Assembly: GCA_035651995.1 (NCBI GenBank)
Contig: DASRER010000002.1
Span: 124,001 to 188,000, forward strand
Direction of reading: 5' to 3'
From: Terriglobales bacterium
GTDB lineage: Bacteria > Acidobacteriota > Terriglobia > Terriglobales > Acidobacteriaceae
Length of the DNA stretch: 64,000 nucleotides
Made by a program: the position numbers and the translations under genes. Each line of letters starts with the position of its first letter. Position 1 is the stretch's first letter. Shown here in pieces: positions 4,155 to 23,937 of this stretch. The notes under the pieces are model-generated. The model made no database searches. It was not told the origin of the DNA and saw nothing but the letters and a program-made list of their open reading frames with translations.

Positions 4155-4381
4155 GGCTGGTGCACTCGCGCTCGAAGATAGTCGAACACCAGGTGCGCGG
4201 CTGCGACCAAGGGCGCGAGTATCAGCGCGATGCCAGTTGCGCGCTGGATGGCCGTTTCGTGCTCCTCCACCTGAAGTTCGAGTCGCTGCAGTCGGCCGGG
4301 CTGCCCATTGCCGACGATGCTCAAGACCTGCGCCTTCAGGGTCGCCAGGTCCGATAGGACAATTTTTTCGAATTCGGTCAT
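4151..4381 (-). CDS. XhlA-like holin or holin-associated membrane protein
   Basis: A 76-residue protein with an N-terminal charged helix, a coiled-coil-like heptad region (LQRLELQVEEHETAIQRA) and one C-terminal membrane segment (GIALILAPLVAAAHLVFDYL). This layout is that of haemolysin XhlA-type phage proteins, which sit in the cytoplasmic membrane and help release the lysin. It lies directly before the lysin with overlapping stop/start codons, as expected for a lysis pair. Sequence identity to a named family is weak, so it could also be a spanin-like or tail-end protein. Its ATG overlaps the stop of the preceding tail gene (4378-4381). Confidence 0.55.
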   Translation of the reverse strand: MTEFEKIVLSDLATLKAQVLSIVGNGQPGRLQRLELQVEEHETAIQRATGIALILAPLVAAAHLVFDYLRARVHQP

Positions 4382-6696
4382 GCCGGGAACTCGATGTGAA
4401 ACGCTGTTGTGTATCGTGAGAATCTCGGCGGCGTGGAGCCGTCATAAGCTCGTAAGAAATAGTCGGAGAGCTGCGCCGGTCGTGGCAGGGTGAATTGTTG
4501 CGTCGCAAACCGTCCGATCAGACTTGCGCTATCCGTACCCCATCCCGAATCCAAGCGACGCACTTCCACACCTCCTCCGGCAGGGGGCGGCTGTCCAACA
4601 TCAATCGTGACCGTCCCGGAGCTGATGCTCACAGCCTCGGCATCCGGCAGCGACTCGGGCAGGGGCATTATGTCCGTCAGGTCGCGCGGCAGAACATCGA
4701 ACAACTGCTGGCTGCGCGCCGATACGAAGCGCATGCCGGTTGGCTCCGTTGCATCGTCGGAAAACATGACCTGGTAGCGATAGCGATCGTTCACCAGGTC
4801 GACGGCCGCGACGTTCACCTCGCGGACCACGGCGGTGAACTGGGCGCCGGCGGATGGCACGTCCAGAGCGATGGCGTCGCCAGGCATGATATCTCCGTTG
4901 GGGAGGAAGTCGCTCCACACGCTGTACTCACCGGAGCGGCGCGGCTGCACGGCGTCGTCGAGCAAGGCACGGGCTGCGTTCTCGCAGTCGGCGGCAGTGA
5001 ATGGCGCCGGATCCAGTACGTCGACGACGGCGGCACGCTGGCCGTCATCGCCGGGCGAGCTCAAGGCAGCGGCGCTGGCGGCGTCGGCCACGCGCGAGAT
5101 CGCAGGCGCAGTCCCGCGATACCGGACCGTGATTCGCTCCTGGAACTGCGGTTTGTGGCGCGCGAAGAACTGCAGAGCCGGGCCGCCAATGAGCTGGCAG
5201 TCGCGTTCATCCGCGACGGGCCCCACACGCAGCGTCCTGAAGGGATCGCCGGGCGCAGCAGCGCGCACTTCGACGTCCGGCCCGCGAGTGACTCGAGTGG
5301 TGGCAATGTCGCAGTGCATGTTGATCGCATTCACCGGCCCATAAACCGCGAATGCGGGCGATGAAACAACGCCATCGAACAGCACCAGCGGCGGCGCTGC
5401 GAGTGAAGCGGGATTGGCCGGATCAACATCACGCACTTCGAGCACGACTCGCGAGTTTGCCGCCACCAGACCGCCGCCACGCGGGTTACCGCTCGGATGC
5501 GCCTCGGAGTGGAAGCACTGCTCGCGGCGAGACATTTCCGGCGTGTAGATGCGCGTATATAACTCGTACGTGTGTCCGCCGGCCGTCGTCATTGGAGTGC
5601 CCACGATGGCTCCGCCGATCAGCGCGGAAATGGACGGCGGCCCTGCCGAAGTAGCGATCGCAAGTCCAGCAAAGCAGTTCGAAACGCTGATGTTTCCTTC
5701 ATACAGGCCGCCGAGAACACCTTGCGACGCGCCCGAGAAACTCACACTGCCGTGCGCCAGCAGCAGGGCGCCGGCAATTTCGAGCGGTTGCAAAAGAGCG
5801 GCTGTGGTTTCGCCGTCTGCGCCTGTGCCGCCGTTCACCCGCAGACGCGAGCCGCTCACGCTGATGGCGCCACCCGCATCCTGAACGTTCCAGCGTGCAG
5901 CATCAAGGGCCGAACCGTACTGCTCGTCGAGCACGATCGCGCTGTCTCGCAGGAACGCGCGCTGCGTCGTCTGAAAACTTGAGCCGACACCATCAGCGAA
6001 AAAGTATTCCCGGACATAGGCCGCCGGCCCCGGCGGACCTATCACGGTGACGTCATTGATCGCCGGAGGCTCAGTGTGCACGCTCAACCCGGCGGGCACG
6101 AACGTGGAGGACTGCGCTGACAGAACATGCGTCTGAGCGCCAATCGGGCGGAACGTAATGGATCCGCCACGGCACCGGTAGCTGGCCCGTGCGCGCGTGG
6201 CAAGGCTGGCGGCCAGTTGCGACCAGCGGCTGCCGCGATCTGGTGTGAACGCGGGCAGGATGTCGAGCGCGTCAACACCGTCGAGGTTAAAGGCGCCAGG
6301 CAGAAGCGTTTGTGTCAGCGATCTGAGCACGTCCCCGGCCGCCGCGTTGGTGAAAGCCAGCGTCGCCGGGATCGGCCGGCGATCCAGCAACGACTCGTCG
6401 CCGGCCGCGGTGACCGCAACCCGGTAGATCGGGCCTCGCTCTCCCCAACCCACGAAGTCGTAATCGGGAATTGCCGTGACGTAGCCCGTGAAGATTGATG
6501 AAGCATCTTCGCGCGCCAGCACAACGCGCGCGCTGGCACGAGGAATGGCGAGCAACGGGTCGGTGATCTGAAGCCGGAACCGGAATTCGTCGGGCGTATT
6601 CAGCCGGCGATGAACTTGCGGCAAAACTTCCGCGTCGAGCGCGGACGTGTAGTCGCGCAGTCCGGCGCCATCATGGTTGTCAACCAGCAGCTTCAT
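4378..6696 (-). CDS. Large phage tail protein, putative baseplate hub
   Basis: A 772-residue protein, the largest after the tailspike. Its N-terminal third (LLVDNHDG, RFRLQITDPLLAIPRASARVVLARED, IFTGYVTAIPDYDF) resembles tail hub/gp27-like domains, which open with a strand-rich ring that docks at the tail tip. The middle part has a jelly-roll look (residues about 235-420, Gly/Ser-rich), possibly carbohydrate-binding. The C-terminal part has further beta-rich repeats. It lies between the tube-like gene and the lysis genes, the usual place for tail-tip proteins. Named by context and general fold only. Confidence 0.5.
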   Translation of the reverse strand: MKLLVDNHDGAGLRDYTSALDAEVLPQVHRRLNTPDEFRFRLQITDPLLAIPRASARVVLAREDASSIFTGYVTAIPDYDFVGWGERGPIYRVAVTAAGDESLLDRRPIPATLAFTNAAAGDVLRSLTQTLLPGAFNLDGVDALDILPAFTPDRGSRWSQLAASLATRARASYRCRGGSITFRPIGAQTHVLSAQSSTFVPAGLSVHTEPPAINDVTVIGPPGPAAYVREYFFADGVGSSFQTTQRAFLRDSAIVLDEQYGSALDAARWNVQDAGGAISVSGSRLRVNGGTGADGETTAALLQPLEIAGALLLAHGSVSFSGASQGVLGGLYEGNISVSNCFAGLAIATSAGPPSISALIGGAIVGTPMTTAGGHTYELYTRIYTPEMSRREQCFHSEAHPSGNPRGGGLVAANSRVVLEVRDVDPANPASLAAPPLVLFDGVVSSPAFAVYGPVNAINMHCDIATTRVTRGPDVEVRAAAPGDPFRTLRVGPVADERDCQLIGGPALQFFARHKPQFQERITVRYRGTAPAISRVADAASAAALSSPGDDGQRAAVVDVLDPAPFTAADCENAARALLDDAVQPRRSGEYSVWSDFLPNGDIMPGDAIALDVPSAGAQFTAVVREVNVAAVDLVNDRYRYQVMFSDDATEPTGMRFVSARSQQLFDVLPRDLTDIMPLPESLPDAEAVSISSGTVTIDVGQPPPAGGGVEVRRLDSGWGTDSASLIGRFATQQFTLPRPAQLSDYFLRAYDGSTPPRFSRYTTAFHIEFPA

Positions 6697-6714: not shown

Positions 6715-7689
6715 TCAGTACAGAGCGGCCGAAGCCGCCGGAAAGTAGGCGCGATAGCTGAGCATCTGTTCGCTATCGATCGGATCGACGATGGGCAGGG
6801 CGCGGAAAGATGCCGGCAGTGAATAATTCTGCAGGCTGTCGGCAATTGCCTGACTAGTCTCGTTAGCGGGGGTCGCTGCCTGCAGCCTCGGATAATGGAA
6901 GCAGAGGCGGCCACCACCATCCTCGGGCACGACGAACAGAGCCGACCACTCCTGAAAGAACGAGCTGCCATCGCGGTCCGCAAATCCCACGATGCGCTGC
7001 ACGGCGGAGCCTGCCGGCGGCGCACCACCCAATAGTGGTTGCGCGAGGTCCAAGGAATTCGCTGTCAGCGTGGCGACTCGAGCGACGTTGAAACTGACCC
7101 TGCGAACGTAGTCCGTGTCGCTGTTCACGTCGACCGCCGCCTTGACACACGCGCCCGCGATTCCGGTGCCCACGTACCCAACTTGGCCGGCGTAGTCGAC
7201 GTCCACCGCGACCAGATCACCGGGGGAAAACGCCGCCAGGTCCGACACACTCAGCAACAACGAACTGGCGGTCGAACCGCCCAGCACGGGTCGCGCTGAC
7301 TGAGGCGTGTTCCCGCTGGAGTCTGCAACCAGGTCAGGGGCGAGCACATTCATGTGCTGCGTGCCGCAGGAAAGAGCCATCTGCAGCTTGCCCCACTGCC
7401 GGAAGTCGAACTCGACGCGTGCTTCCAGTTGCGCTCGAACCTGTGTGAGTGCCGCCGACTTGGCGCCGCCGCGCACGGCCGTCACGTTCGTCTCCGGCAC
7501 TCGCCTGAAGCGGTCAATCCAACCCAGGTCAACCCATGGTGCGGGCGGGGAGGTCAGGTCAAACATGCCGTCGCGCGCGAAATTGAAGACCGTGGGTGCG
7601 CCACTGGCACGATCGACAGGCGCGAAGTAAGCTCGCACGCGTGGCGCCAGCACCGACATGCTGCCGCGATTGGCCGAAGAGGCTGCCAT
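6715..7689 (-). CDS. Putative phage tail tube-like protein
   Basis: A 324-residue beta-rich protein without signal peptide or membrane segment. The segments PWVDLGWIDRFRR and VRAQLEARVEFDFRQWGKLQMALS recall the strand pattern of tail tube or tail terminator subunits. It follows a 181-residue tail-completion-like gene with a one-base stop/start overlap (TGATG) and precedes the hub-like gene. I do not recognise a specific family. A structural virion role is inferred from its place in the morphogenesis order. Confidence 0.45.
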   Translation of the reverse strand: MAASSANRGSMSVLAPRVRAYFAPVDRASGAPTVFNFARDGMFDLTSPPAPWVDLGWIDRFRRVPETNVTAVRGGAKSAALTQVRAQLEARVEFDFRQWGKLQMALSCGTQHMNVLAPDLVADSSGNTPQSARPVLGGSTASSLLLSVSDLAAFSPGDLVAVDVDYAGQVGYVGTGIAGACVKAAVDVNSDTDYVRRVSFNVARVATLTANSLDLAQPLLGGAPPAGSAVQRIVGFADRDGSSFFQEWSALFVVPEDGGGRLCFHYPRLQAATPANETSQAIADSLQNYSLPASFRALPIVDPIDSEQMLSYRAYFPAASAALY

Positions 7690-8234
7690 CAGTCTTCCAT
7701 CTCCGGCATGAAGAATACGGTTAGGGATGCGCTTGCCTGCAACAGCGCTCCCTGGCTCTGCGGCATGGTGAAGCGCGGGCGGGTCCAGACAATCCGGGTC
7801 CCCAGGTCAGTGGCCGGTGATTGGGTGTAGTCCCGTTTCTCAGCGAACGGCGGCGCGCAGATCTGGAGCAACTCGAGTTCGAGCGCGTTCACAGCGCGGC
7901 CTCGATCGTTCCCCGCTCCGCCGGCGACGCCGCCCGAGCTGAACGCGATTTTGCAATCCAGCGCCAGCAGCGGACGCGGGCTCGACTGGAAGTTATCCGC
8001 CGCGCGCAGCGCGCCCCATTGCAGGTAGAACGCGTTGGGAATGGCGCTCCGTTGCGAGATCGGCTGAGTGAAGTCGACCCCCACCACGCTTGGGTCAACT
8101 TCGGTCACGGCTTCGTTTTCCGGCGACACCACGGCCGGGCGGCTCTGGCCATCGAGGACGATCGTGCGCTCGGGATTCAGCGCCGACAGCCGATCGCGCA
8201 ACGTCACAAAGAATGTGTCTTTGGCAAATTGCAT
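7689..8234 (-). CDS. Putative tail completion/terminator protein
   Basis: A 181-residue protein. It begins MQFAKDTFFVTLRDRLSALNPER and contains a strand-rich core ending in QGALLQASASLTVFFMPEMED. Size, position (after the connector genes, before the tube-like gene) and the RDRL start fit tail completion or tail terminator proteins, which cap the tail or join it to the head. No motif gives a firm assignment. It shares one base with the downstream start codon, so translation is probably coupled. Confidence 0.45.
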   Translation of the reverse strand: MQFAKDTFFVTLRDRLSALNPERTIVLDGQSRPAVVSPENEAVTEVDPSVVGVDFTQPISQRSAIPNAFYLQWGALRAADNFQSSPRPLLALDCKIAFSSGGVAGGAGNDRGRAVNALELELLQICAPPFAEKRDYTQSPATDLGTRIVWTRPRFTMPQSQGALLQASASLTVFFMPEMED

Positions 8235-8258: not shown

Positions 8259-8684
8259 TTACTCGCCCGCGGTGACGCGATAAACCGTGACGATCCCGCC
8301 GAACACTTCCACAGCCAGCCCGGAGATGTGCAGCAAGGAGCCCCCGTGCACGATGCCCAGCGAGGAGTTGAACAGTGTGGCCGCGGAGTCCAGGCCGCGC
8401 GCTTCCGCCAGCGCGTCCACCGCAGATGCAGACATGAGCAGTTCGTACCGCAGCGCGCCGGAGCGCGAATCGGGCGTTAATGGCAGAATGACCACCGGCG
8501 AGACCGGCGCGTCTTCCACCGGAATCGTGCTCAGGCCGAGTTGCACTGCTGTGGCATTGCCTGCGGGAATGCCCGGCAATCGAAGGCTCACTTCTGTGCC
8601 GCCAAGCATGCGCAACATCGCATTCGCGGCACGAACAAGAGCCTGACCGTGCAGCAGCTCGCGCGATGCGGCTTGCGCTGTCAC
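8259..8684 (-). CDS. Phage head-tail region protein, unknown
   Basis: A 141-residue protein. The longer frame reaching 8990 is rejected because its N-terminal part overlaps the connector gene and has shadow-like composition. The start is GTG at 8684, which overlaps the upstream TGA as GTGA. The product begins TAQAASRELLHGQALVRAANAMLRMLGG, then turns beta-rich with a Val/Leu/Ile-rich end (VVILPLTPDSRSGALRYELLMSAS). It stands where HK97-type phages carry head-closure or neck proteins, but I recognise no family. Confidence 0.55.
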   Translation of the reverse strand: MTAQAASRELLHGQALVRAANAMLRMLGGTEVSLRLPGIPAGNATAVQLGLSTIPVEDAPVSPVVILPLTPDSRSGALRYELLMSASAVDALAEARGLDSAATLFNSSLGIVHGGSLLHISGLAVEVFGGIVTVYRVTAGE

Positions 8685-9337
8685 GATGCCACCTTCTGCG
8701 CCACGTAAGGCGCGAGCAACGCCGTCACGGTTTGGTCGAAGATCGAATCCTGGAAATATTCCAGGTGCATGCGATCGATGGTGCTGGCGCGCACGTTCAG
8801 CGCCGGCGTCGCCTGCGCGTTCCGAATCACCTGCGCACAGGCGAACTTCACCGCATCCGGCACGTCGGCGAGGCCCGCCGTGTACGTGATTTCGATCTCG
8901 TTGTAGGCCAGGCCGAGCGGGCCCATGGGGAAGGTCAGCTCGCCGGTCTCGCTGAAGTAGTCGATCGCGGCGGGATCCACCATCGTCCACGTTCCCGGCA
9001 ATGTGAACGCTTGCGCAACGTCATATGCCAAGTCCGTGATCGGCGGCAGGTGAGTTGCCGAAGCAAACCCACCTTCGCCGCGGCGCGGCGTCGCGAACCG
9101 CGCGCGCGCTGAAACGATGGGTGACGTAGCGGGTGCTGACGCGGCCAGCGGCAAATAGCTCAACCGTGCCGTGTTCCGGCCCGCGGCGAGTCGCAGCCGC
9201 TCGACGTACTGCGCTATGCCCAGCGTGGACCGGCGGCAATGCGCGTCGAGCAGCGAGGATGCCGCCGTCACCCAAGCCTCGGGAAGGCTGGCCTCGAGGC
9301 CGTACGCCTCGTATTCCGATGGAGACAAGTAATTCAT
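8681..9337 (-). CDS. Putative head-tail connector (gp6-like) protein
   Basis: A 218-residue protein starting MNYLSPSEYEAYGLE, with a helical core around DAVKFACAQVIRNAQ and ASTIDRMHLEYFQDSIFDQTVTALLAPYV. Small helical proteins of this kind directly after the capsid gene are usually gp6/gp15-like head-tail connectors that bind under the portal. The C-terminal line of helices fits; the central beta-rich region (GELTFPMGPLGLAYNEIEI) is longer than usual. Start ATG at 9337, with AAGG close upstream. It is separated from the capsid gene by a 142-base gap that holds heptamer repeats. Confidence 0.55.
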   Translation of the reverse strand: MNYLSPSEYEAYGLEASLPEAWVTAASSLLDAHCRRSTLGIAQYVERLRLAAGRNTARLSYLPLAASAPATSPIVSARARFATPRRGEGGFASATHLPPITDLAYDVAQAFTLPGTWTMVDPAAIDYFSETGELTFPMGPLGLAYNEIEITYTAGLADVPDAVKFACAQVIRNAQATPALNVRASTIDRMHLEYFQDSIFDQTVTALLAPYVAQKVAS

Positions 9338-9479: not shown

Positions 9480-10457
9480 TTACCGGTCGACGTTCACGCG
9501 GTAGTGAGCGTAGGAAGCGCCCTTCACCACGACGCCGCCAAACTTCACCACCACCATCTGCGAGGCCAGGTTGCCGGTCATGCCGAGCTGAAAAACGCGC
9601 GGGTTGGGATCAGTGAGCCAGTGGTACTCGATCAGGTCCTCGCTCACGATGTACGCTGGCAGCACCGCCGAACCCGAGCCCGGAGTCCCGGTGTAGCCAA
9701 GCGCCCACTCCGGAATCAGCGGCAGCTCGCCGGCCTGGGTGGAAAGCGTCTTCACCGTGATGCCGCCGGCGATCTCCTTGGTGGAGAGCACGACGTTGAA
9801 TTCGGTCTTCATCTCGCGGTCGATCAGGTCGAGCAGGACCGGGTTCGCGTAGATCGCGGTGGGCCGCACTTCGAACGACGAGTTCGAAACCATCTGCGCG
9901 ATCGTGGACTTTAGACCATCAACGATGCTCTGGCTCGTGGTGATCGTGGCCACATTGCCGCCGTCGGTGATCTGGCCGGCCACGCCGTAATACTGCGCGG
10001 TGGTCGGACTGCTCAGCGACGTGTCGCTTCCGTTCCACAGGGCGACGTCGTGCGTACGCAGCAGGCCTTCCACAGAGTCCGCCAGGTCCTTCGCCTGCAG
10101 GAAGGCAAACTGGCTTTGCTGCGCGCCGATCTCAGCGTCGAACAGGTTGTAGTTGATCTGCGAGACGAGCGCCTTCAGTGGCACGCTGCGCTCGGAACGG
10201 CTCGGCGACCCGACCGTTGCCACGATGTTGCGCGGGTCGACGAACGCGTTGGCCGAGCTCGGCGAATTGATGGCCGTCTGCTCGAAGAAGCGTGACGGGT
10301 GACCGGTCGCCGGCACCTGCTTGATCCTTTGGCCAAAGGCCCCACGTCGGCGCACGATGTCAGTGACCTCGTTCTGGTAACGGTTGACCTCTACTGCGCC
10401 CGGCCCGAGAAAATCCGCCGCCGCGTGCAGGTCGAGAAACTGTGCTGTCATTTTCAC
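9480..10457 (-). CDS. Major capsid protein
   Basis: A 325-residue protein with the usual size and place of an HK97-fold capsid subunit, just after a coiled-coil scaffold-like gene. Features that fit: an N-terminal helical arm (YQNEVTDIVRRRGAFGQRI), an extended loop region (SRFFEQTAINSPSSANAFVDPRN), and a central domain with PTAIYANPVLLDLIDREMK, a segment typical of SU10-like and related capsids. The end (MVVVKFGGVVVKGASYAHYRVNV) resembles the strand-rich A-domain close. No signal or membrane segment. The assignment rests on gene order plus these segments. Confidence 0.75.
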   Translation of the reverse strand: MKMTAQFLDLHAAADFLGPGAVEVNRYQNEVTDIVRRRGAFGQRIKQVPATGHPSRFFEQTAINSPSSANAFVDPRNIVATVGSPSRSERSVPLKALVSQINYNLFDAEIGAQQSQFAFLQAKDLADSVEGLLRTHDVALWNGSDTSLSSPTTAQYYGVAGQITDGGNVATITTSQSIVDGLKSTIAQMVSNSSFEVRPTAIYANPVLLDLIDREMKTEFNVVLSTKEIAGGITVKTLSTQAGELPLIPEWALGYTGTPGSGSAVLPAYIVSEDLIEYHWLTDPNPRVFQLGMTGNLASQMVVVKFGGVVVKGASYAHYRVNVDR

Positions 10458-10465: not shown

Positions 10466-10544
10466 GGTTGTCAGTTGTCGGTTGCCAGTTGGTGGAACCA
10501 ACCAGCGCCGGAACTGGCCACCGGCAACTGGCAACTGCGAACTA
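10466..10544. repeat. Paired inverted heptamer arrays between capsid and scaffold genes
   Basis: The left array (GGTTGTC, AGTTGTC, GGTTGCC, AGTTGGT; 10466-10493) and the right array (GGAACTG, GCCACCG, GCAACTG, GCAACTG, CGAACTA; 10510-10544) are period-7 and of opposite sense. GTTGCCAGTT can therefore pair with copies of AACTGGC/GGCAAC and form an extended imperfect hairpin. The right array runs into the stop codon of the scaffold-like gene. Confidence 0.7.
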
Positions 10545-11006
10545 GTCGATCAGCCCGGCGCGCGCCATTTCCGTCTTTACGGCGATGCGCTGCTCCACGC
10601 TAAGCGCGGCCAGCGACTTCTCAAGCGCAGCCGCGTCGAACCTGTCGTGCGCTTCCACGCCGTTTTTGGCGAGCAGCATGGTCATGGTCGGAGGCAGCGT
10701 CTTGCGCGCGGCGCGCTCCGCGAGCTGCGAGGCGCGCGCCTTCAGCTCGGAGTTGACGCGCTCGAGGTCGGCGACTCGGGCCTCGAGCTGCTCGCGGCAG
10801 GCCGCGCCGCTCTCGTCGATGGCGGCGACGATGCGGTCCACCTTGCTGCCGAGTTCGCTCTGCTGAGCCTCGATGTGCTGGATGACGCGCGCCATTGCGG
10901 CATCGAGCGCCTCGGCGGCGGCAGTGATGCGCTCCGCCGCTGCTGCCAATGCGGTAACGCCGATGTCGGGTTTGGGGCCGCGGTCGGTGCTGTCAGGTGT
11001 TTTCAT
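10542..11006 (-). CDS. Putative scaffolding protein
   Basis: A 154-residue, almost wholly helical protein. A long heptad pattern (AAAERITAAAEALDAAMARV through ELKARASQLAERAARK) occupies residues 20-105, followed by a compact end (MLLAKNGVEAHDRFDAAALEKSLAALS) that may be the coat-binding part. Coiled-coil proteins directly before the capsid gene and after the prohead protease gene are normally scaffolds. The sequence itself gives no family name. It starts at ATG 11006. Confidence 0.55.
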   Translation of the reverse strand: MKTPDSTDRGPKPDIGVTALAAAAERITAAAEALDAAMARVIQHIEAQQSELGSKVDRIVAAIDESGAACREQLEARVADLERVNSELKARASQLAERAARKTLPPTMTMLLAKNGVEAHDRFDAAALEKSLAALSVEQRIAVKTEMARAGLID

Positions 11007-11049: not shown

Positions 11050-11625
11050 TCAGACGTTGTGTGCGCTTACTACCGAAAACGACGCCTCGTTCTCCGGGCT
11101 TCCCAGTGCGATCCAGGTTGCGCCGTACGCAGCTTTCTCGCGCAGCAGCACGGCGGCTCCGGTAAACGTAAACTCCACCAGCGTCCACACAGCGGAGCGA
11201 ACATCGGCGACGCGCGCGTCGGCTACTTCGTACGACATGCCAAGGTCGCGCTGTCCGGCCCCGCGGATTCGCTGGACAACTTCAGGAAAATCGCGCGCGA
11301 AGAGATACCCGCGCACGTCGACCCGCGATGCGCCCGCAGCCGCGCTTCTGACCGGCACGATGTCCGCCGCGGTGATGATGCCCACCTTGCGGCGCGCGTC
11401 ATGGCCGTCGAGTTCGGGCGTGTAGTCCAGCGCCATGCCGAGCAGCGACGGCAGGGCGGCCTCCGCGGCGCGTCGCGTGAGCATCACGCGACGCCCGCGC
11501 GCGCCCGACGGCGCCTTGTCGGACGGCACGTCGAGCATCGTGAGCACGCCGTGGAATGGCTGCCGATTGGGATGCCGAGACACCCGTGGCATCTCGATCG
11601 CCATGGATTCGAGGTGAAGTCTCAT
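11050..11625 (-). CDS. Putative prohead maturation protease
   Basis: A 191-residue protein between portal and scaffold genes, where capsid maturation proteases lie. The order of candidate catalytic residues fits a serine herpesvirus-fold phage protease: His75 in LDGHDARRK and Ser131 in LGMSYEVADA. The N-terminus (RQPFHGVLTMLDVPSDKAPSG) matches the strand start of such enzymes, and FTGAAVLLREKAAY resembles their closing segment. It would cleave scaffold and capsid in the prohead. No sequence comparison was possible, so the catalytic residues are proposed by position only. Confidence 0.6.
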   Translation of the reverse strand: MRLHLESMAIEMPRVSRHPNRQPFHGVLTMLDVPSDKAPSGARGRRVMLTRRAAEAALPSLLGMALDYTPELDGHDARRKVGIITAADIVPVRSAAAGASRVDVRGYLFARDFPEVVQRIRGAGQRDLGMSYEVADARVADVRSAVWTLVEFTFTGAAVLLREKAAYGATWIALGSPENEASFSVVSAHNV

Positions 11626-11667: not shown

Positions 11668-12861
11668 CTAGAGCGGCGGCAACCCACGCATCGCACGCGC
11701 CTCGTTCACCGTCAGCACACCGTTGCGCAGCAAAATTTCCTGGATCTGCACGTCCTCCATTTCGTTGCGGGCGTCCACGTCCGTAAAGACGAACTCCAGG
11801 TCGCCCCATCCGAGGCGCTTTTGAATCGCGCCACGCGACAGTTGCTCTGCGAACAGGCGCGCCGTCGGCACAATCGCAGTGCGAAACGCTTGGTCGCTCA
11901 GTTCGCCGGCGGTGGACCGGTTCACGTCGTGCTCCACTCCGAGCAGGAATGGCGGCAGGTCAAACGCATCCGCGATGATGCGCAGCAGGAACTCCTGCCA
12001 TTGCAGACGCAGGTCGGCGTCGGTGCCGCCGCCAAAGCGCAGCACTTCAGGTTTCGCGTCCACCGAGAGAATCGGAACTCGGCCGGTGCCTTCGATCTCG
12101 TCCTGCCACCACCGGATCAGCCGTTCGTGATGCGCTGGCGTCAGCCCTTGCAGCCACAGGGCGTACTGCACAACCGAGTTGCTCGCCAGGCGCGCCGCAT
12201 AGCGATGCGCACTGAGGAAGTTGTTGATCGTCTCGAACGCGACCTCCAATCGGCCGAGTCCAAACGGCGTGTGTGTGCGCGAATTCAGACGGATGTAGAT
12301 GAGCTCGTCGTCGTTGAGCGGAACCGTCGCCTTCTTGCCCATTTTTCCAGTCGCCTGTTCGTAGCGCGGCGAATCTGGACGCCCATCCCAATCGGCGCGC
12401 ACCATGATACTTGCGCCGTCCACGGGCCACAGCAGCAGCGGGCGCTCGTGGTTCCCCGTGAGCTGCACCTCGATGGCGCCGAACCCGCCCACGATCACGT
12501 CTTCCAGTACCTGCTCGGCGAACGACCGGAACGAATCTTCCGGATTTGGCGAGTCCAGGTTGTCGCTCAGGATGCGAATGCGCTCGCGAGCGCCCGGAAC
12601 CTCTGGCAGCGAGCGCCCGTTCTGCGGCTGGATACGCCAGCGCATGCCGGCCACGCGGTCCTTGACGATATTGATTGCCTTGCGCGCGATCGGCGTTTCG
12701 GCAAAGCGCCGCAGGTTCGCCTGCGTCGCCTTGGGCAATGCTTCCGGCCGCGCCCAATAGGGCTGCAACAGCGACGGCAGCGATTGTGTGCGCCGCTTTT
12801 GGCGCGCACCTGTGCCTGCGATGCGGCGCAGAGCGCCGCGCAACGTTTCTGCAATTTTCAT
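11668..12861 (-). CDS. Phage portal protein
   Basis: A 397-residue protein with portal features: the early ARKAINIVKDRVAGMRWRI segment, the FAEQVLEDVIVGGFGAIEVQ helix, IYIRLNSRTHTPFGLGRLEVA, and FDLPPFLLGVEHDVNRSTAGEL, the segment of Mu- and HK97-type portals that begins the long stem. It forms the dodecameric ring through which DNA is packed. It is normally next to the large terminase, but here two non-structural genes lie between them. Start ATG at 12861. Confidence 0.85.
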   Translation of the reverse strand: MKIAETLRGALRRIAGTGARQKRRTQSLPSLLQPYWARPEALPKATQANLRRFAETPIARKAINIVKDRVAGMRWRIQPQNGRSLPEVPGARERIRILSDNLDSPNPEDSFRSFAEQVLEDVIVGGFGAIEVQLTGNHERPLLLWPVDGASIMVRADWDGRPDSPRYEQATGKMGKKATVPLNDDELIYIRLNSRTHTPFGLGRLEVAFETINNFLSAHRYAARLASNSVVQYALWLQGLTPAHHERLIRWWQDEIEGTGRVPILSVDAKPEVLRFGGGTDADLRLQWQEFLLRIIADAFDLPPFLLGVEHDVNRSTAGELSDQAFRTAIVPTARLFAEQLSRGAIQKRLGWGDLEFVFTDVDARNEMEDVQIQEILLRNGVLTVNEARAMRGLPPL

Positions 12862-12898
12862 TGAGATTGAACTCGGGTAATTCGTTGACGCGTGAAAC

Positions 12899-13702
12899 CT
12901 ACAGCCGCAGTTCGCGCCGCGCCAGGTCAGCCGCTTTTGGCAGCTCGGCGCCGGTGATTACATGAACATTGCCGCGCCGCAGTGTTTCCAGCGCGAAGCC
13001 GATCTCATCGTCGTTCCTGTCGAGGCCGTCCTCCACCACCGCTGTCAGCTCGGCCTTGGTCCGGTCAACTCGCGCCATGCCCTCGGCAATTTGCGGGAAG
13101 CTGAAGGCGAGCACTTTCGCGGCGTCGATGTCGGTCTCCAGCGAGACAGCATGCAACAATTTGGTCACGCCGTTCGGGCGATAGCCGCAGTCGAGTTTCA
13201 ATGGGTCGCCCCGATAGGTGTACGGCGCTACCGGAATTCTCTTCTTCATCAGCGCCCACACTCCGGCGTTCTCGAACGCCGCCCTCATTCGACCCACCAG
13301 CACCGCGCGCCCGCCCGCCTCGCGTTCCCTGGCGCGAGGCGCCGGATCCAGATAAAGCCGCGCCAACTCCTCCACTTCGCGCTCGGGAGAATCGGTAAGG
13401 CAAGCGTTTGGCGCCGATGCCTGAATGCTTCCCGAGAATGACTCGCGCATCATGTCCAGCAGCCGCTCGCGGTCTTTCACCGACTCAAGCCGCGATCGCA
13501 GGTCGTTTTCCATCGCCGCCAGCATTTCGACGTCGGCCGCCGGATCGAGGCAGCGCACGCGCTTCCAATCGCGAGCGAACCGCACGTGCGCTGAGTCATC
13601 TGCGCGGCCCAGCAGCACGACGCCGATGTTCACAAACTCATTGCGCACCGCGTCGGGAACATAACGCAGCAACACGAACTCGCATTGTTGGCGATCGGCC
13701 AT
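12899..13702 (-). CDS. DUF3037-like protein paired with a HipA-like kinase
   Basis: A 267-residue protein with the look of the DUF3037 family: N-terminal CEFVLLRYVPDAVRNEFVNIGVVLL, then FARDWKRVRCLDPAADVEML. Its biochemical role is unknown. It follows the HipA-like kinase gene by 36 bases, and I recall kinases of the HipA_2 group and DUF3037 genes as frequent neighbours in bacterial genomes, so the two probably act together, perhaps as regulator or antitoxin and kinase. The C-terminal part (DRTKAELTAVVEDGLDRNDDE) has no motif I know. Its place inside a phage packaging operon is unusual. Confidence 0.7.
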   Translation of the reverse strand: MADRQQCEFVLLRYVPDAVRNEFVNIGVVLLGRADDSAHVRFARDWKRVRCLDPAADVEMLAAMENDLRSRLESVKDRERLLDMMRESFSGSIQASAPNACLTDSPEREVEELARLYLDPAPRAREREAGGRAVLVGRMRAAFENAGVWALMKKRIPVAPYTYRGDPLKLDCGYRPNGVTKLLHAVSLETDIDAAKVLAFSFPQIAEGMARVDRTKAELTAVVEDGLDRNDDEIGFALETLRRGNVHVITGAELPKAADLARRELRL

Positions 13703-13738
13703 GTTGCGTTTGACCTTGCCCGCGACAGCCGCAACCTG

Positions 13739-14587
13739 TTAGTCCGCGCTCGCTTCCGCCCGCCACTCCGGAAAAGGATCGCGCGACGATGTGCGAAACT
13801 CCTCGATCAACTCCCGCACCTGGCTCTTGCGCCGGATGAGGCCGTTGAGCAGCCGCTCCAGCGCATCCCAGTCGCCGCCGTACCACTCCGGTGGCACATC
13901 GTTGCCGCATTCCCAGATGGCCGAATCCTCGAGCTGTTCGATCCGTGTCAGGCACGGATCGAACGAGCCCCAGTCGCGAACACCCTCGTACACCTCGTTC
14001 CACGGATAGACGCCGCGCAACGGCGAGTCAGGAAATGTCCACTCACCTGCGTTGAAGCAGTACCCATGATCAATGAACGAAACCGTGTACTTGCGCTCGC
14101 GCGCCCTCTTCCAGAAGACTGCCTGCCGGCCGTTGGCGTTTGCCGTCCATTTATCGAACGCCAGCATGCCGGCAAAATCTGAAAGATTGCGCACTCGCTC
14201 CAAATGCGACTGCGGCAGCCAGTCGAGCACCTGGCCGTCGAACGGCGGCAGAATGTAACGTGAGCCGAACTGCAGCCCATCCGCGCACCGCTCGCTGCGT
14301 CCCGCCACCTGGATGGTCATCTCCGGGCTGTGCTCAATCAGCCAGGCGCTGACCTCCACGACTTCGGCCTTCGGGACCGGCAGGCCAACTTTTTCCGCCA
14401 GCCGAGTGGCCACCAGTTCGTTAGCCAGCACTCGCGGATGTTGGGGGTTGTTGCGGAATTTCACTACGTACAGGTTGCTGTCGGAGCAGCGCATCAGTTG
14501 CGATTGCGCTCCCCCGCGCATGCGTCGGACGTGTTGTATCGCTGCGATCGCCACGCCCTGTAAGCGTAGTGCCGAACAACAACTCAC
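13739..14587 (-). CDS. HipA-like Ser/Thr kinase
   Basis: A 282-residue protein of the HipA_2 kind. Kinase landmarks are in order: LYVVKF with candidate ATP-binding Lys43, the helix LANELVATRLAEKVGL with Glu57, a catalytic-loop-like FDKWTANANGRQ (Asp145, Asn150), and a DFG-like IDHG (Asp173). In characterised HipA toxins the substrate is an aminoacyl-tRNA synthetase; here it is unknown. The start could be GTG 14587 or, with better fit to relatives, GTG 14554. It lies 33 bases after the terminase gene and just before the DUF3037 gene, so it is transcribed with the virion genes. No HipB-like HTH partner is adjacent. Confidence 0.75.
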   Translation of the reverse strand: MSCCSALRLQGVAIAAIQHVRRMRGGAQSQLMRCSDSNLYVVKFRNNPQHPRVLANELVATRLAEKVGLPVPKAEVVEVSAWLIEHSPEMTIQVAGRSERCADGLQFGSRYILPPFDGQVLDWLPQSHLERVRNLSDFAGMLAFDKWTANANGRQAVFWKRARERKYTVSFIDHGYCFNAGEWTFPDSPLRGVYPWNEVYEGVRDWGSFDPCLTRIEQLEDSAIWECGNDVPPEWYGGDWDALERLLNGLIRRKSQVRELIEEFRTSSRDPFPEWRAEASAD

Positions 14588-14620
14588 CCCTCAATTTGCC
14601 CATCCGGGAGGGCCGCGATT

Positions 14621-16114
14621 TTACCTTAACCCGTGCCGAATCGGGAGGCTGAGGAACCGCAGTCCGCTTCGGGACACAGTTGACACTTCTTTGCGCACCG
14701 CTGCTGCGATGGCCATCGCCATGATCGCATCGTCGTGTGCACCCGACGCCGCACCGGCCGAACCATCCGGACGCCGCACAAACGTTCTGCACTCGCGCAA
14801 CAATCGCATACTGCTGAACAGTTGCGGCGCATCGCTCAGCAACACCGCGAACTGCTCCAGCATGTTCGGCCGCGATATGGCAGATGTGTACCAGCCCAGC
14901 TTCCCTTGCTGCTGGTAGATCTGCTGATAGTGCTCACTCGCCACCAGATGCGCGAGCACCGCCTGGCCGTGATTGTTGCGCTCCACGGCCAGCGTGGCGT
15001 GGTTGTACTCACGCCCCAATTTCGCGACCGCCGCAGCCAGCTCGCGCGGCGGCAAATGCCCGTAGAGTTCGGCGCACTGCAGGCCAGTCCTGGTCTCGAC
15101 GACCTGGGCACAGGAGAAGTCTCCCTCACTTCCGCCGCCGGCCGGGTCCACACCGATGGTGTAATCGCTGCCGGGCTGCGGCGGCCACCAGATAGCGAGC
15201 CGCTCGTTGTCGCGCATTTCCAGCGGAGGCGCGCAATCAGCCAGCCGGCGGTCAATCGTCGCGACGTCGAAGACGCACTCTCCCGACGCCAGAAAACAGC
15301 TCTCGGCGTCTTCGGCGAACTCCTGCCGCGCCAGACGGCCGAACTGCGCGACAATTTCGCGCCGAAACGCGATCTGCTCGTGCGAGAGCGACCAGCGTTC
15401 CGCGAGGACCTGCTCTTCCTCCGTCAACTCCAGTGCCTGTTCCAGCGGACGCCGGTACGTTGCCTCCCACCACCAGGGAAAGAAGTGGCGGACGTAGCCG
15501 CTGTGCTCCGCCTGTTGCCACTCCCGGAAAAAACTCCCGGCGGCGCCGCTGGGAGTGGACTCCAGCACAATTTCGCCGCCGGGAACAACGGCCGCGCGCA
15601 GTGACGCCAGCGTCTCCCCGGCGTCGCGCGGCCAGCGCGCAACCTCGGAGCAGTGCAGGTTGCGAATCGTGAGCCCGCGCCCGGCATTCGCGTCACCCGC
15701 CGACTCCACTCGGTACTCGCTGTCGAGCAGCGGAAACACAATCTGCCGGACGTTGGAACGCCGCGTTTGCAGCGCCCCGGTGCGTAGCGCTTCCGGCAGG
15801 TTCTCCAAGAAGCGATGCACGATGCGGAAAATCGCCTCCGCCGAACTGTGGTCGTGCGCTACTTGCACGGTCATGCACCCGGGCCGTGTGATCGTGTCGA
15901 TAAAAAACCGTGCCGCCACCCAGGTGGTGATTCCGACCTGGCGCGCCTTCAATACGATGTTGCGTGTCCCGGCCCGGCGCTCGAACTCGCGCTGCGTGGC
16001 TTGCGCCTGGAGCGGCACGCGTTGGCCCCTCTTATCGCGGACCCAGAGCAACCCTTCGATGAGTTGCAGCCTTGCGCCAAGTCTGGTGTCGCCGCGAAGC
16101 CACTCACCAAGCAA
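14621..16114 (-). CDS. Terminase large subunit
   Basis: A 497-residue DNA-packaging motor. The ATPase domain holds a Walker A-like KARQVGITT (about 56-64), a Walker B-like LHCSEVA with Glu157, and the coupling LESTPSG (184-190). The nuclease domain shows Asp323 in IGVDPAGGG, Glu378 in AVERNNHG and HDDA at 460-463. It cuts and translocates DNA into the prohead through the portal. The start is uncertain: the listed TTG has no ribosome binding site, and the reading frame continues upstream with coding-like sequence (ALCDRDELIL), so initiation may occur slightly earlier at a non-ATG codon. No small subunit was identified. Confidence 0.88.
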   Translation of the reverse strand: MLGEWLRGDTRLGARLQLIEGLLWVRDKRGQRVPLQAQATQREFERRAGTRNIVLKARQVGITTWVAARFFIDTITRPGCMTVQVAHDHSSAEAIFRIVHRFLENLPEALRTGALQTRRSNVRQIVFPLLDSEYRVESAGDANAGRGLTIRNLHCSEVARWPRDAGETLASLRAAVVPGGEIVLESTPSGAAGSFFREWQQAEHSGYVRHFFPWWWEATYRRPLEQALELTEEEQVLAERWSLSHEQIAFRREIVAQFGRLARQEFAEDAESCFLASGECVFDVATIDRRLADCAPPLEMRDNERLAIWWPPQPGSDYTIGVDPAGGGSEGDFSCAQVVETRTGLQCAELYGHLPPRELAAAVAKLGREYNHATLAVERNNHGQAVLAHLVASEHYQQIYQQQGKLGWYTSAISRPNMLEQFAVLLSDAPQLFSSMRLLRECRTFVRRPDGSAGAASGAHDDAIMAMAIAAAVRKEVSTVSRSGLRFLSLPIRHGLR

Positions 16115-17496: not shown

Positions 17497-20400
17497 TTAC
17501 ATCGCCCTCCGAATCGTCAGCTCTACACCGATCAAGCGAGCGGTTGCCGCAATCGTATCGGCGGCGTCGTTGCCATCGCGAAACAGCTTGATGTGCAGCA
17601 GGTTTCCCGGATTACAGCCCGTAATCGTGGCTGCGCTAATCGACGACACCTGGACGCGGTTCGCCGTCCCGGGTGCCGCGGTCGTCACGGTCGAGGCCGT
17701 GTTGAATGCCGGATCATCGGTCGCGCTCGCTGCAACATCGGTGCAGGCTGTCGACAGCGACCACTTCGCATTGCCGCTCGTCGCGCTCGTCGTCCAGATG
17801 ATGCGGGCATCAATGTTCCCGGTGAAGTCTGCCGGAAGAAGAAGCGTGTTCTGCGCCGAGAACCCCCCCGACGTGTCGGCGTAATCGAGCACGCCCTTCT
17901 GGGTATTCGTGCCTGTCACGCAGGCAGGGGAAGCCGGCGTGGAGGTTGGGAGGTCCCAAAACGGCGACGCAGTCGCATTGTTGCATCCCGCGGCCGGCAA
18001 CCATACTTTGGTGGGGATCGTAATCACGTTGCCGCTACCCTCGGCGTCGAGCGTCTTGTTGGTCAGCGTCTCGGTGCTCGATGGCGAAACGTAGTCGGTC
18101 CCCGCCGTCGCGGCAGAAAAGGCCGACGTCCCGTTCCCCTTGACGATGCCGCTGATCGTGGTCACACCCGTGCCACCGTTGCCGACGGCGGTCGTGCCCG
18201 TTACATCGTTCGTATCGTTAAGCGCAACCTTCCTGGCAGCGGCATCGAGAGAGCCCGCCGTGCTGTGCCAAAAACCCGTGCCCGTCACCGACGAACCGCC
18301 GCCGCCGCACGGGGTGCCGGCGTCGCCAAGTTTGCCGCCGGCAACCCACTTCACGCAGTTGTCAGTTGTCGGATCCGCACCCAGGTCCGTGCTGGCGACT
18401 TTCACTCCGGGTACGCTGCCAAAGGCATCCTTCACCGCGGAAGTACCGAGCCCCAGGTTCGCCCGGGCCGTAGCGGCGCTGGCAAGGTCGCTCAAATTAT
18501 TCGTGGCTTTCAGGTAGGCCACGAGCGCTCCTGAGGCTACCCACCCGGTGTTTCCCGTGCCGGATTCCTTGAAGTAGATCGACGTTCCTGCTCCGCCGTC
18601 CGTGCGATACCACGTTGATCCGACGCTCGCCGCTACCACTCCCTCGGGAGACCCCGGGCCCGACATCGCGCACACACTCCCCGCACCGAAGCAGTAGCCC
18701 TTCGAGTCGATATGCACAATGTTGCTACCGCCCACAGCCACGTAGAACCCGGCATCGGAATCCGCCAGCCCAACCGAGAGCGAGTGCGTCCCCGCGTAAA
18801 ATCCGTAACCCAACGCGCTTCCAATTCGAATTCCAGGAGTTGCATTGTTTCCCGCTGGCGCTCGCAGCTGGCCGTCACAAATCGTGACTCCGTTCACCGA
18901 ACTCGGGAATTGATAGAAGTAGCAACCGCCCGCGGTCGCGATTTGAAACGCCAGATCGTTGCCGCTCGTGTAGCCACCGCTGCCGTTCTTGAATGTGAGC
19001 GCCGGCGCGGTATTGGTGCCGTCCTGAGCGATCGTCACCTGCGTGAACTTGCCTGTGTTCGGTGTGGTTGCTCCGATTGTGCCTGGATTGTTCCAGTCCG
19101 TGCTTCCGCCCCCACCGGAGCCGAAACATGTCTCCGTGCCCGATGAAGCTTTTTGGCAGAGCCCGCTGCCGCTCTTGACGTACGTCCAGAACTGCCCGCT
19201 CGGCGGATTCCCTGCCGGAGTGCCCTGCGCCACCGGCTGTGTAACGCCGCGGACTTTCACGATCGTGGTCTCGTTGTACGCCGGTTTCGAGTAGTTGTAG
19301 GGGCCAGCGGGATTCGTTGTGACGTCATAGCTGGTGCTCGTCGTGTTCGCGACGAGCCCCCAAAATGAGCCGTCAGCAGGGTTGGCCGCCAGAATGTCGT
19401 AGCTTGTCGCACCGGGGGCCGCCAACCACGAAAGAGCAACGTAGTTGTTCGCGTCATAGCTGGCAGGAGTCGCGCAATTCTGGTGCCGCACCATGGCCCG
19501 GTTGCCATTCGCGTCCTTCGCCACCAGCGCATACATCCGATTGGCGCCGCCGCCGGCGCCCACGACCGAGCAGGTCAGTCCCGGCTGCATGACCGAAGCA
19601 ATCTCGATTCCGCCGTGGTCAAGGCAGGTGCTTGTGCCGTCGATGGCGCACGGCAGGCCGCCAAGCTGTTGCGCCTGGTTTAGATCAAGATTGATGCCGA
19701 TCAGTGGCCGCCGGAGCCCATTGGTGTGCCGCGCCTGGATGCGCCCGGACCAGCTTTCGTAAACAGGCACGCCGCCTATTGTGAGCGGCGAGCCGGCAGC
19801 GGGAAGCGTCTGATCGCCGCCGAAGTCGTCAACCTGCGACTTCGCGAGCGCCAGGTCTTTCTCAATGTTGTAGCAACTAGACGCGACCGTCGTGCCGCGG
19901 CTGAGCATCCGCGTCTGGTTGTTATCCGGAAATCCCAGGAGCCTCAGCGACGGATCAGGACAGCCGCTTCCATCCTTCACAAAGTCGAAATTGTTGTTGC
20001 GAAAGTCGACCGTCGCGTTCAACGGCATGATCACGAAGGTCTTGGTCAGGTCTGGAGTGTTGGCGCCGAAATTATTCCCGGAAATCTCCAGCGGTGGCGT
20101 CGAACTCGCCGCGGTGCCGTCAATACCCTGCTTCGAGTTTTCGCTGATATTGCCTTTGAACGTGCTCGGGTCGGTCCACCCCGTAAGCTTGAAGTCGAGG
20201 TCGTTCGTGGTGAACTCGTTGTCCTCGATCTTCCAGCTGCCATTCAGTTCGGTGATCGCCACACGGCAGTTCCCGATGAAGTTTCCGGTGATCCGGATGT
20301 TCTTGGCATTGGGATTGTTGCCGATCGTGATGCAGTCCGTGAGCCGCGTAGCCGGAAGATCGAAGTTCCCGAAGAACGTGCTGTTCTCGAAGCGAATGTC

Positions 20401-21606
20401 TTCCTGGTTGTTCCCCGAGTTCGACGGCGAAATCGCCACCAGCTTCGCGCCGGCGCGCGATTTTGAATTGAAATAGTCGCGCTGAAAGAGGATGTCGCTG
20501 GTAATCAGGCTGCTTCCAGCCAGATTCTGGTCGATCCTCACCACCGTGCCGGCGAGCGTGCTGCTTCCCGTTGCCCAGCCGCAGAACGCCAGCCCCTCGA
20601 ACACCAGTCCGCGTGAACGGTTGATGTCGATCAGCACACCATCGTTCGCGCCCGCCCAATTGAAGCCCGCCGTCGTGCAGTCCGATGAACTGCCCTGGCC
20701 GGTGGGTGAGTAAAACTTGATCTTGTGGCGCAGATAAATCTGAACGCTTGTCGTGATCCTCATCCGAAAATTGGGCGGAACGAAGCCGCACCCGCCATCG
20801 GGGATCGCGTTGATCCACGCCTGGATCGCCGCGGAGTCATCGGTCACGCCGTCCCCCTTGGCGCCAGATGCGCGGACATCCGCGCATGGCCTCTGCGTGG
20901 CCAAATCGCTGACCGTCAATCGCCCCTGGCGCAGGTCCAGCACCGGCACACCAGCGGAGTTCGTATACGTGTCGGCGCCTGCATACGTCGAGGGGATCAG
21001 TACGGCGCCGCTCGTCCCCGCATCGTTGATCGCCGATTGGATGTTCGCGAACTGGCTCGCATAACGTACCGACGCCAGCGTGACCGGAGTGTCTCCCTGC
21101 CGGCCGAGCTTCGTCACCGTCACCGCATCCTGCGCCGCGTTCTGCGTGTCAACATAACTAACCGTGGCGTACTGCCCGGCTGAGGCGGTTGGTACCACCG
21201 AGGCGCGTATCGCCGACACCGTCGTCGGTGACGTGGTCGGCACAACCCAGGCTTCTGTGTTGGTCGTGCCGTCGTTCAATTTCAAGGTGGCTTTGTAGTA
21301 GGTACCCGGAGGCGTCGCTCCCTGATTGGGCGCCAGTGCCAGGTTCAGCGCGCCGCCGGGACCAAGTGTCACGCTCATCGCCCCCGCTGCGACGGCCTTG
21401 TGATCTGCTGTAACGAACGCGGGCCACGACAGAAGGATCGTCCCCTGCGCCGGTGCGCCGTCCGCGCGATACACAACGTCGTTGATTACCGTCGTTGCGG
21501 GCTGCGCGGCGTGCAGACAAGGCGTCAGCCAGACGCACAGCACGACGATGGCGGAAAAAGAAAGCCGCCCCGCGGGGCGGCTGAAATCAGTGCCGGTTTT
21601 TATCAT
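17497..21606 (-). CDS. Exported tailspike-like protein with pectate-lyase-type beta-helix
   Basis: A 1369-residue protein. Residues 1-33 form a signal peptide (SFSAIVVLCVWLTPCLHAAQ). About 240-600 carry a parallel beta-helix opening with ASGAKGDGVTDDSAAIQAW, the mark of Pectate_lyase_3 tailspikes and depolymerases. Then come fibronectin-like and Gly-rich fibre segments, phage-fibre-type repeats (ETLTNKTLDAEGSG) and a C-terminal domain. It would bind or cut surface polysaccharide. Start ATG 21606 with AGGA upstream. Two oddities: the signal peptide, unusual for a virion protein, and a terminator-like hairpin within the first 45 bases of the frame. It lies upstream of the terminase rather than with the tail genes. 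Confidence 0.7.
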   Translation of the reverse strand: MIKTGTDFSRPAGRLSFSAIVVLCVWLTPCLHAAQPATTVINDVVYRADGAPAQGTILLSWPAFVTADHKAVAAGAMSVTLGPGGALNLALAPNQGATPPGTYYKATLKLNDGTTNTEAWVVPTTSPTTVSAIRASVVPTASAGQYATVSYVDTQNAAQDAVTVTKLGRQGDTPVTLASVRYASQFANIQSAINDAGTSGAVLIPSTYAGADTYTNSAGVPVLDLRQGRLTVSDLATQRPCADVRASGAKGDGVTDDSAAIQAWINAIPDGGCGFVPPNFRMRITTSVQIYLRHKIKFYSPTGQGSSSDCTTAGFNWAGANDGVLIDINRSRGLVFEGLAFCGWATGSSTLAGTVVRIDQNLAGSSLITSDILFQRDYFNSKSRAGAKLVAISPSNSGNNQEDIRFENSTFFGNFDLPATRLTDCITIGNNPNAKNIRITGNFIGNCRVAITELNGSWKIEDNEFTTNDLDFKLTGWTDPSTFKGNISENSKQGIDGTAASSTPPLEISGNNFGANTPDLTKTFVIMPLNATVDFRNNNFDFVKDGSGCPDPSLRLLGFPDNNQTRMLSRGTTVASSCYNIEKDLALAKSQVDDFGGDQTLPAAGSPLTIGGVPVYESWSGRIQARHTNGLRRPLIGINLDLNQAQQLGGLPCAIDGTSTCLDHGGIEIASVMQPGLTCSVVGAGGGANRMYALVAKDANGNRAMVRHQNCATPASYDANNYVALSWLAAPGATSYDILAANPADGSFWGLVANTTSTSYDVTTNPAGPYNYSKPAYNETTIVKVRGVTQPVAQGTPAGNPPSGQFWTYVKSGSGLCQKASSGTETCFGSGGGGSTDWNNPGTIGATTPNTGKFTQVTIAQDGTNTAPALTFKNGSGGYTSGNDLAFQIATAGGCYFYQFPSSVNGVTICDGQLRAPAGNNATPGIRIGSALGYGFYAGTHSLSVGLADSDAGFYVAVGGSNIVHIDSKGYCFGAGSVCAMSGPGSPEGVVAASVGSTWYRTDGGAGTSIYFKESGTGNTGWVASGALVAYLKATNNLSDLASAATARANLGLGTSAVKDAFGSVPGVKVASTDLGADPTTDNCVKWVAGGKLGDAGTPCGGGGSSVTGTGFWHSTAGSLDAAARKVALNDTNDVTGTTAVGNGGTGVTTISGIVKGNGTSAFSAATAGTDYVSPSSTETLTNKTLDAEGSGNVITIPTKVWLPAAGCNNATASPFWDLPTSTPASPACVTGTNTQKGVLDYADTSGGFSAQNTLLLPADFTGNIDARIIWTTSATSGNAKWSLSTACTDVAASATDDPAFNTASTVTTAAPGTANRVQVSSISAATITGCNPGNLLHIKLFRDGNDAADTIAATARLIGVELTIRRAM
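21550..21581 (-). terminator. Terminator-like hairpin inside the tailspike signal-peptide codons
   Basis: A perfect 18-base palindrome, GCCGCCCCGCGGGGCGGC (21564-21581), is followed on the minus strand by TTTCTTTTT. It sits about 25 bases inside the tailspike frame and encodes part of residues 9-16. It has the form of an intrinsic terminator, with a very small loop, and could attenuate transcription entering the tailspike or end the upstream operon. Confidence 0.6.
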
Positions 21607-21648: not shown

Positions 21649-22107
21649 CTAGTCGTTCCCCGCGGGCGCATAGCTGCGCATGAAATTCTCCACGCTGCGC
21701 ACGTATACTTCCGCCAAATCCACGACGTTACGGCGGCTCACCAGCAAACGCTGCGCGTCCGCCAAACTCAAACCGCTCGCCCGCAATATCGCCAGCGTCA
21801 TCATCGGCGCGCGGTGAACGCCGGCGGCGCAGTGCACGAACAGCCGGGCTGCGTCGTTCTGCAACGCAGCGGTCGCAAACTCCACACCGCGCTGAAAAAC
21901 TTCGGGCGGCTTTGGCAGGAAGTCGTCATCCACAGGGTTCCACAGCACATCGATTCCGTAAGGATCAGCGAGTTTCCGGTCATCGAACTCCACCTGCATG
22001 TTGATGATGTGCGTTACCCCAGCGCGCACAACCTCAATCATGTTGGCTTCGTGCCAGATTCCGCCGCCCACGGCGATCCGCGGTGTCACCCACGTCAGGT
22101 CCATCAT
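21649..22107 (-). CDS. Dual-specificity protein phosphatase
   Basis: A 152-residue cysteine phosphatase. The signature VHCAAGVHRAP gives the CX5R loop with Cys93 and Arg99; an upstream Asp in NPVDDDF (about 60-62) is a candidate general acid. It would remove phosphate from Ser/Thr/Tyr residues or other phosphomonoesters in the cytoplasm. It lies 42 bases before the tailspike in the leftward phage operon, together with a HipA-like kinase further down, so it may tune kinase effects or host signalling. No signal peptide. Such enzymes are rare among phage structural genes. Confidence 0.85.
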   Translation of the reverse strand: MMDLTWVTPRIAVGGGIWHEANMIEVVRAGVTHIINMQVEFDDRKLADPYGIDVLWNPVDDDFLPKPPEVFQRGVEFATAALQNDAARLFVHCAAGVHRAPMMTLAILRASGLSLADAQRLLVSRRNVVDLAEVYVRSVENFMRSYAPAGND

Positions 22108-23862: not shown

Positions 23863-23901
23863 TCTGAACTGGAGTAACGCACGGCATTGGTGTCATGGTA
23901 C

Positions 23902-23931
23902 TTGCTCCCGACAATATCTTTTTGTTATAAG
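23902..23931 (+). promoter_or_regulatory. Predicted repressor promoter (leaderless transcript)
   Basis: TTGCTC (23902-23907) and TATAAG (23926-23931) are 18 bases apart. Transcription would begin at or next to the GTG start codon at 23938, and there is no Shine-Dalgarno sequence, so the mRNA is predicted to be leaderless, as in lambda cI from its maintenance promoter. Confidence 0.45.
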
Positions 23932-23937
23932 CACCGC

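Follow-up and report, generated by a model that had tools for sequence, protein, structure and literature searches.

A HipAD-type kinase-DUF3037 pair within a putative domesticated, GTA-like capsid cluster of Terriglobia

The window analysed here, a stretch of 64,000 nucleotides from a Terriglobales bacterium, carries a capsid gene cluster (Table 1) in which a kinase gene and a gene for a DUF3037 protein lie side by side on the (-) strand, kinase first, between the genes for the terminase large subunit (TerL) and the portal. This placement, already described in the initial annotation, is confirmed by the open reading frames, and the intergenic gaps along TerL, kinase, DUF3037 and portal are 33, 36 and 37 bases for the genes as first called. 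Dozens of genomes and metagenome contigs of independent origin show the identical four-gene order, which rules out an assembly artefact. A scan of window positions 11500-17000 found no promoter or terminator. That no HipB-type HTH gene is near, also claimed initially, is true of the operon, in which the neighbours of the kinase are TerL and DUF3037; the nearest HTH is found in a CI/S24-like gene at 23887-24654, ∼9 kb upstream.

Table 1. Genes of the capsid cluster and its flank, in window coordinates.
Feature	Position	Strand	Evidence and remarks
Host pyruvate dehydrogenase E2; flank marking the conserved chromosomal site	2296..3654	+	PF00198, 4e-80
Conserved gene at the end of the cluster that adjoins host pyruvate dehydrogenase E2	4378..6696	-	Conserved position
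Conserved cluster gene, function unassigned	6715..7689	-	Conserved position
Conserved cluster gene, function unassigned	7689..8234	-	Conserved position
Head-tail adaptor	8681..9337	-	phrog_442, 4.4e-12
Putative major capsid protein	9480..10457	-	Placed by position and by conservation of 75-83%; family searches gave no match
Coiled-coil protein, which from its position alone may be a scaffold	10542..11006	-	Weak coiled-coil-type matches; order conserved
Conserved cluster gene, which from its position alone may encode a prohead protease	11050..11625	-	Same place in nearly all cluster loci; no family match
Portal	11668..12861	-	PF04860, E=1.6e-46; in 131/200 genomes
DUF3037 protein, probable antitoxin/sensor, HipD-like	12899..13702	-	267 aa; PF11236, E=1.2e-22; PDC-M66B, 3.3e-10
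HipA_2 kinase, probable toxin	13739..14587	-	282 aa; PF20613, E=8.6e-13; PDC-M66A, 2.8e-11; AlphaFold2 pLDDT 86.7
Terminase large subunit	14621..16114	-	phrog_2 (PHROG 2), E=1.9e-27; in 127/200 genomes
Large tail-spike-like protein, length variable among relatives	17497..21606	-	Weak pectate-lyase-like match; position conserved
Dual-specificity protein phosphatase	21649..22107	-	PF00782, 4.8e-10; PDB profile match to VHR/PRL phosphatases; Cx5R intact (HCAAGVHR)
HTH + S24-like regulator of the cluster	23887..24654	+	PF00717, 4.7e-7; homologues adjoin the cluster in several upstream regions, also in another order

A Pfam profile search of the window proteins assigns the two products to HipA_2 and DUF3037, in agreement with the initial annotation, and adds a weak HipA_C match for the kinase. 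The active-site residues named in that annotation are conserved throughout an alignment of homologues: K43, D145, N150 and D173 are invariant (117/117), and position 57 is either E or D. Codons 1-11 of the gene as called are absent from the homologues; as these start level with the GTG at 14554, that GTG rather than 14587 is probably the true start, giving a product of 271 aa. The AlphaFold2 model of the kinase has a fold of the HipA/CtkA type, with structural matches to CtkA (Z 16.0), Shewanella HipA (Z 12.7) and Legionella HipT (Z 12.0), and together with the retained catalytic residues this suggests the kinase is likely active. Strong purifying selection on the kinase is indicated by its dN/dS: three close pairs give 0.03-0.06, and values as high as 0.19 occur in more distant pairs. 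In most close pairs the kinase is more conserved than TerL.

The DUF3037 model is locally confident (pLDDT 89.5, pTM 0.56). Its structural matches are mostly to PD-(D/E)XK-fold proteins and, with a best E of 2.7e-3, are too weak for a fold assignment, which we do not claim; the resemblance makes an inactive nuclease-like domain possible. Neither a HipB nor a DUF1829 partner domain was found by Pfam in this protein. A search of isolated phages with DUF3037 gave no match, and a pattern-based search of viral contigs with DUF3037 alone found no relative, since DUF3037 diverges too fast for this method. Four loci (L015, L168, L177 and L199) have a second, partial DUF3037 copy between the kinase and the full-length DUF3037 gene.

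Both proteins match the PADLOC-DB models for phage defence candidate M66, PDC-M66A and PDC-M66B, respectively, which identifies the pair, at the level of sequence, as HipAD (alias DS-6/PDC-M66), an already known two-gene toxin-antitoxin (TA) defence system. A kinase-DUF3037 pair is also carried by Retron-Sda1, in which strains deleted for the kinase lose defence against phage Bas51 and deleting DUF3037 proves toxic, leading its authors to read the two as toxin and antitoxin, respectively (PMC12548924). DS-6 was found by DefensePredictor and renamed HipAD; its catalytic residue is essential, and AlphaFold3 predicts a complex (PMC13092281). This published work on relatives backs the suggestion, made when the locus was first annotated, of a role in dormancy or as a toxin-antitoxin pair, and at the same time removes the suggestion of a new toxin-antitoxin type. 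Nor is the pair new to phages, as had been thought: in Escherichia phage PhiR5_1 the genes that immediately follow cI are annotated as a HipA toxin and a HipD antitoxin (HipA_2 9.7e-77 and DUF3037 7.6e-24 in Pfam), and many enterobacterial prophages of IMG/VR also carry the pair. The unexpected part is therefore the setting, not the pair itself.

An IMG/VR scan with the kinase retrieved 16 contigs, and in 15 of these a single order is found: terminase, kinase, DUF3037, portal, then the capsid genes. When the portal was used instead, in an independent scan, 22 contigs were retrieved at ≥58% identity, with the pair in place in 19; in three closely related metagenome contigs (L021, L023 and L026) the terminase directly precedes the portal, and these represent natural pair-less versions of the cluster. 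All 80 loci from a GTDB genome scan are acidobacterial by record title, and the complete terminase-kinase-DUF3037-portal order is present in 48 of them, many others being cut by contig ends. Within the host order, a profile search of draft genomes, some of which split the cluster between contigs, found the portal once each in 131 of 200 genomes (the gene being in two pieces in three) and TerL as a single copy in 127; the kinase was found in 175 and DUF3037 in 165, counts that may include some paralogues. How often the pair lies within terminase-portal operons, a question raised by the initial annotation, was surveyed in 29 twenty-kb regions chosen on the portal alone, and the kinase is located between TerL and portal in 28.

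Individual loci depart from this pattern. The kinase is incomplete in G134 (L295), which is one of the 28 counted above, and the portal of G060 has an internal stop, both signs of decay. The pair has relocated in one case (G064 C1:1481297, L314, and L294), and a different stretch of ∼1.4 kb separates terminase and portal. The tail-spike-like gene encodes homologues that range from ∼800 to 2400 aa between genomes. An orphan kinase, 48% identical to that of the window and without DUF3037, occurs at 7992-8798 of a phage-like contig with an integrase-like gene (L020, IMG/VR 3300037883_000322). In the largest genus sampled (L279/L280 with L348/L349, from G036 and G054) the cluster is rearranged, with capsid-tail genes before, and TerL, kinase, DUF3037 and portal after, the tail-spike gene.

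The four-gene block has thus been kept together in the largest genus despite the rearrangement of the cluster around it. The presence of the module is not a strict requirement of the cluster, given the three contigs that are without the pair and the placement of the pair elsewhere in G064.

Pyruvate dehydrogenase E2 adjoins the far end of the cluster in 21 of the 29 portal-chosen regions, and is also found in several regions that have the pair only. Distances between RpoB sequences correlate with those between kinases (Mantel r=0.85, n=31), and more weakly with those of terminase, portal, capsid and DUF3037 (r=0.64-0.79). The RpoB and particle-protein trees have 9 of 20 splits in common, against a random maximum of 3, so that congruence is far above chance but partial. 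Outside the host order, the cluster is carried by two genomes of one family from a different order of Terriglobia, in one case (L346) beside the same Cys/Met-metabolism enzyme, lytic transglycosylase (SLT) and regulator genes as in the window. No PF00589 integrase lies within ∼40 kb of the cluster in any of 12 genomes, among the matches listed, and the GC content of the cluster (62.8%) is that of its flanks (62.6 and 62.9%). Of the features expected of an active temperate phage, there is accordingly neither an integrase in or beside the element nor a distribution independent of host phylogeny; of those expected of a gene transfer agent (GTA), we find vertical inheritance, with a partial match of topology, and capsid and packaging genes with no integrase nearby. 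A fixed site, single copy, RpoB congruence, host-like GC and lack of an integrase are together the signature of a domesticated, vertically inherited, GTA-like element. In soil acidobacteria this phage-derived cluster has long been passed down in the same manner as any other gene of the chromosome.

The pair can outlast the particle genes. In at least five host lineages these are gone and the kinase is kept, together with DUF3037 in four of the five. Eight portal-less genomes (L307-L313 and L315) have the kinase, without terminase or capsid genes, at recognisably the same locus, DUF3037 being present in seven. Two such cases (G084, and G039 with G044) are nested within capsid-bearing clades in both RpoB and kinase trees, and mapping the capsid state on the RpoB tree requires at least five changes, which are most simply read as losses because the full cluster is present in the outgroup family. 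In one pair-only lineage the dN/dS of the kinase is 0.046.

The dual-specificity phosphatase gene retains its HCAAGVHR motif in all 27 loci where the phosphatase was found. It adjoins the kinase in several pair-only genomes, and in family f2 and some genera without capsid genes the phosphatase, kinase and DUF3037 form a compact operon with touching or overlapping genes. The phosphatase is not universal, as no copy was detected in one large host clade, nor in the cluster of the other order. Two host orders have the HTH + S24-like regulator next to the cluster. We considered and rejected an SOS-cleavable repressor for this gene: conservation of the serine position breaks down in one clade, and most aligned rows show no evident lysine where one would be expected. 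With its protease residues not conserved, the regulator is probably not cleaved in an SOS response. Profiles of the capsid and portal proteins found no match among PDB sequences.

Taken together, the presence of an anti-phage toxin module of known type between TerL and portal, and its retention in species without the capsid genes, suggest that it was built into a GTA-like element. We consider it fairly probable that a HipAD-type TA module has become a permanent component of a GTA-like capsid cluster, domesticated and vertically inherited, in Terriglobia and acts there as a growth-arrest switch. By analogy with the homologous systems in which deletion of DUF3037 is toxic, DUF3037 would hold the kinase inactive. 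Induction of the cluster, or a phage-like threat, might disturb DUF3037 and so free the kinase, which could then phosphorylate a growth-essential protein and bring about arrest or death of the cell. The outcome would be either particle production tied to arrest of the producer or abortion of a rival phage, and where the dual-specificity phosphatase is present it could reverse the phosphorylation and reset the switch. A more specific version, which we put forward only tentatively, is that an undescribed Terriglobia GTA has been controlled, since before the two orders split, by the defence-type TA kinase as its built-in switch, joined in some lineages by a cognate phosphatase, and that this switch times the growth stop of the producer or the release of particles.

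The main rival to the growth-arrest switch is a role in host defence. Homologues of the pair provide defence on their own (PMC12548924, PMC13092281), the pair alone survives in several lineages, and its retention without particle genes, like the phosphatase-kinase-DUF3037 operon of family f2, fits a host anti-phage or TA operon for abortive infection, with or without the phosphatase, whose position in the cluster would reflect history only and which would be functionally unconnected with the particles. A passenger of this kind would be expected to drift off, and yet, of the regions examined, G064 alone shows this; the pair stays between TerL and portal in nearly all genomes that have the cluster, those of the rearranged genus (L279/L280 with L348/L349) and of the other order (L346) among them. 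We regard such an operon as rather unlikely. The data do not separate it from a linked function: retention alone favours the defence operon, and long co-location with TerL and portal favours the link.

That same tight co-location, together with a kinase more conserved than TerL in most close pairs, could be taken to indicate an enzyme of particle maturation or packaging, with terminase, portal or capsid proteins as its phosphorylation substrates, DUF3037 as a chaperone and the phosphatase as its counterpart. Genomes that have lost terminase and portal still keep the kinase, so another target must exist, and its homologues are toxic or defensive (PMC12548924); we therefore find this role very improbable. 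We give least credence to the proposal of the initial annotation, by which an active prophage would carry the pair as cargo to exclude superinfecting phage or to impose dormancy while DNA is packaged. The pair does occur next to cI in lambdoid phages (L003; L130-L166), and IMG/VR lists the cluster among its viral contigs, but such a listing alone is no evidence of free phage, and the single copy, fixed site, RpoB-like phylogeny, host-like GC and absence of an integrase nearby led us to reject an active prophage. Overall, the identity of kinase and DUF3037, the intact active site and the toxin-antitoxin idea of the initial annotation have stood, and its suggestions of a new toxin-antitoxin type, of a pair not yet described in phages and of active-phage cargo have not.

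If the growth-arrest switch in a GTA-like cluster is correct, a new phylum, dominant in soils, joins the carriers of GTA-like elements, and the pair becomes the second case, after LypABC, of an immune module tied to such an element. The natural comparisons available (cluster with pair, cluster without pair and pair without cluster) make the question of what keeps a TA pair in a genome directly testable. The pair itself, and GTA-like elements as a kind, are already known. In the openly licensed literature we found no report of a GTA in Terriglobia, and no kinase-DUF3037 pair in any GTA, although earlier mention of either elsewhere is possible. Eichorst et al. (2018) reported prophage-like regions that are related between several Granulicella, Terriglobus and other acidobacterial genomes ('prophage' clusters 140 and 153) and read them as likely active prophages (PMC5900883). 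These may include the element of the window; a fixed site, host-like phylogeny and the kinase pair are not discussed in the passages of that paper on the clusters.

Comparison with characterised systems places the pair itself close to HipAD/DS-6/PDC-M66, with which it has in common two adjacent co-directional genes, the kinase first, matches to both PADLOC models and intact catalytic residues. It is only ∼20-30% identical to the lambdoid HipAD pair, and unlike known HipAD it lies within a capsid cluster that is inherited vertically, in some cases along with a dual-specificity phosphatase. DS-6B has a DUF1829 domain (PMC13092281), in contrast to the window protein, in which Pfam finds none. The kinase fold and the weak HipA_C match are likenesses to HipBA and HipBST (Z-scores to HipA and HipT as above), but the pair has DUF3037 in place of a HipB-type HTH or HipS partner. 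As in the GTAs RcGTA and CcGTA, the capsid cluster is vertically inherited and occupies a fixed site in the majority of species within a large clade, with host-like composition and no nearby integrase; it differs from them in belonging to another phylum, in being known from genes alone and in its built-in kinase-DUF3037 pair. A parallel to this last feature is provided by LypABC, an immune-like system that has been co-opted as a controller of a Caulobacter GTA and is needed for GTA-mediated lysis (PMC13236601). LypABC is a CARD-NLR-like peptidase system, made up of proteins of another kind than kinase and DUF3037.
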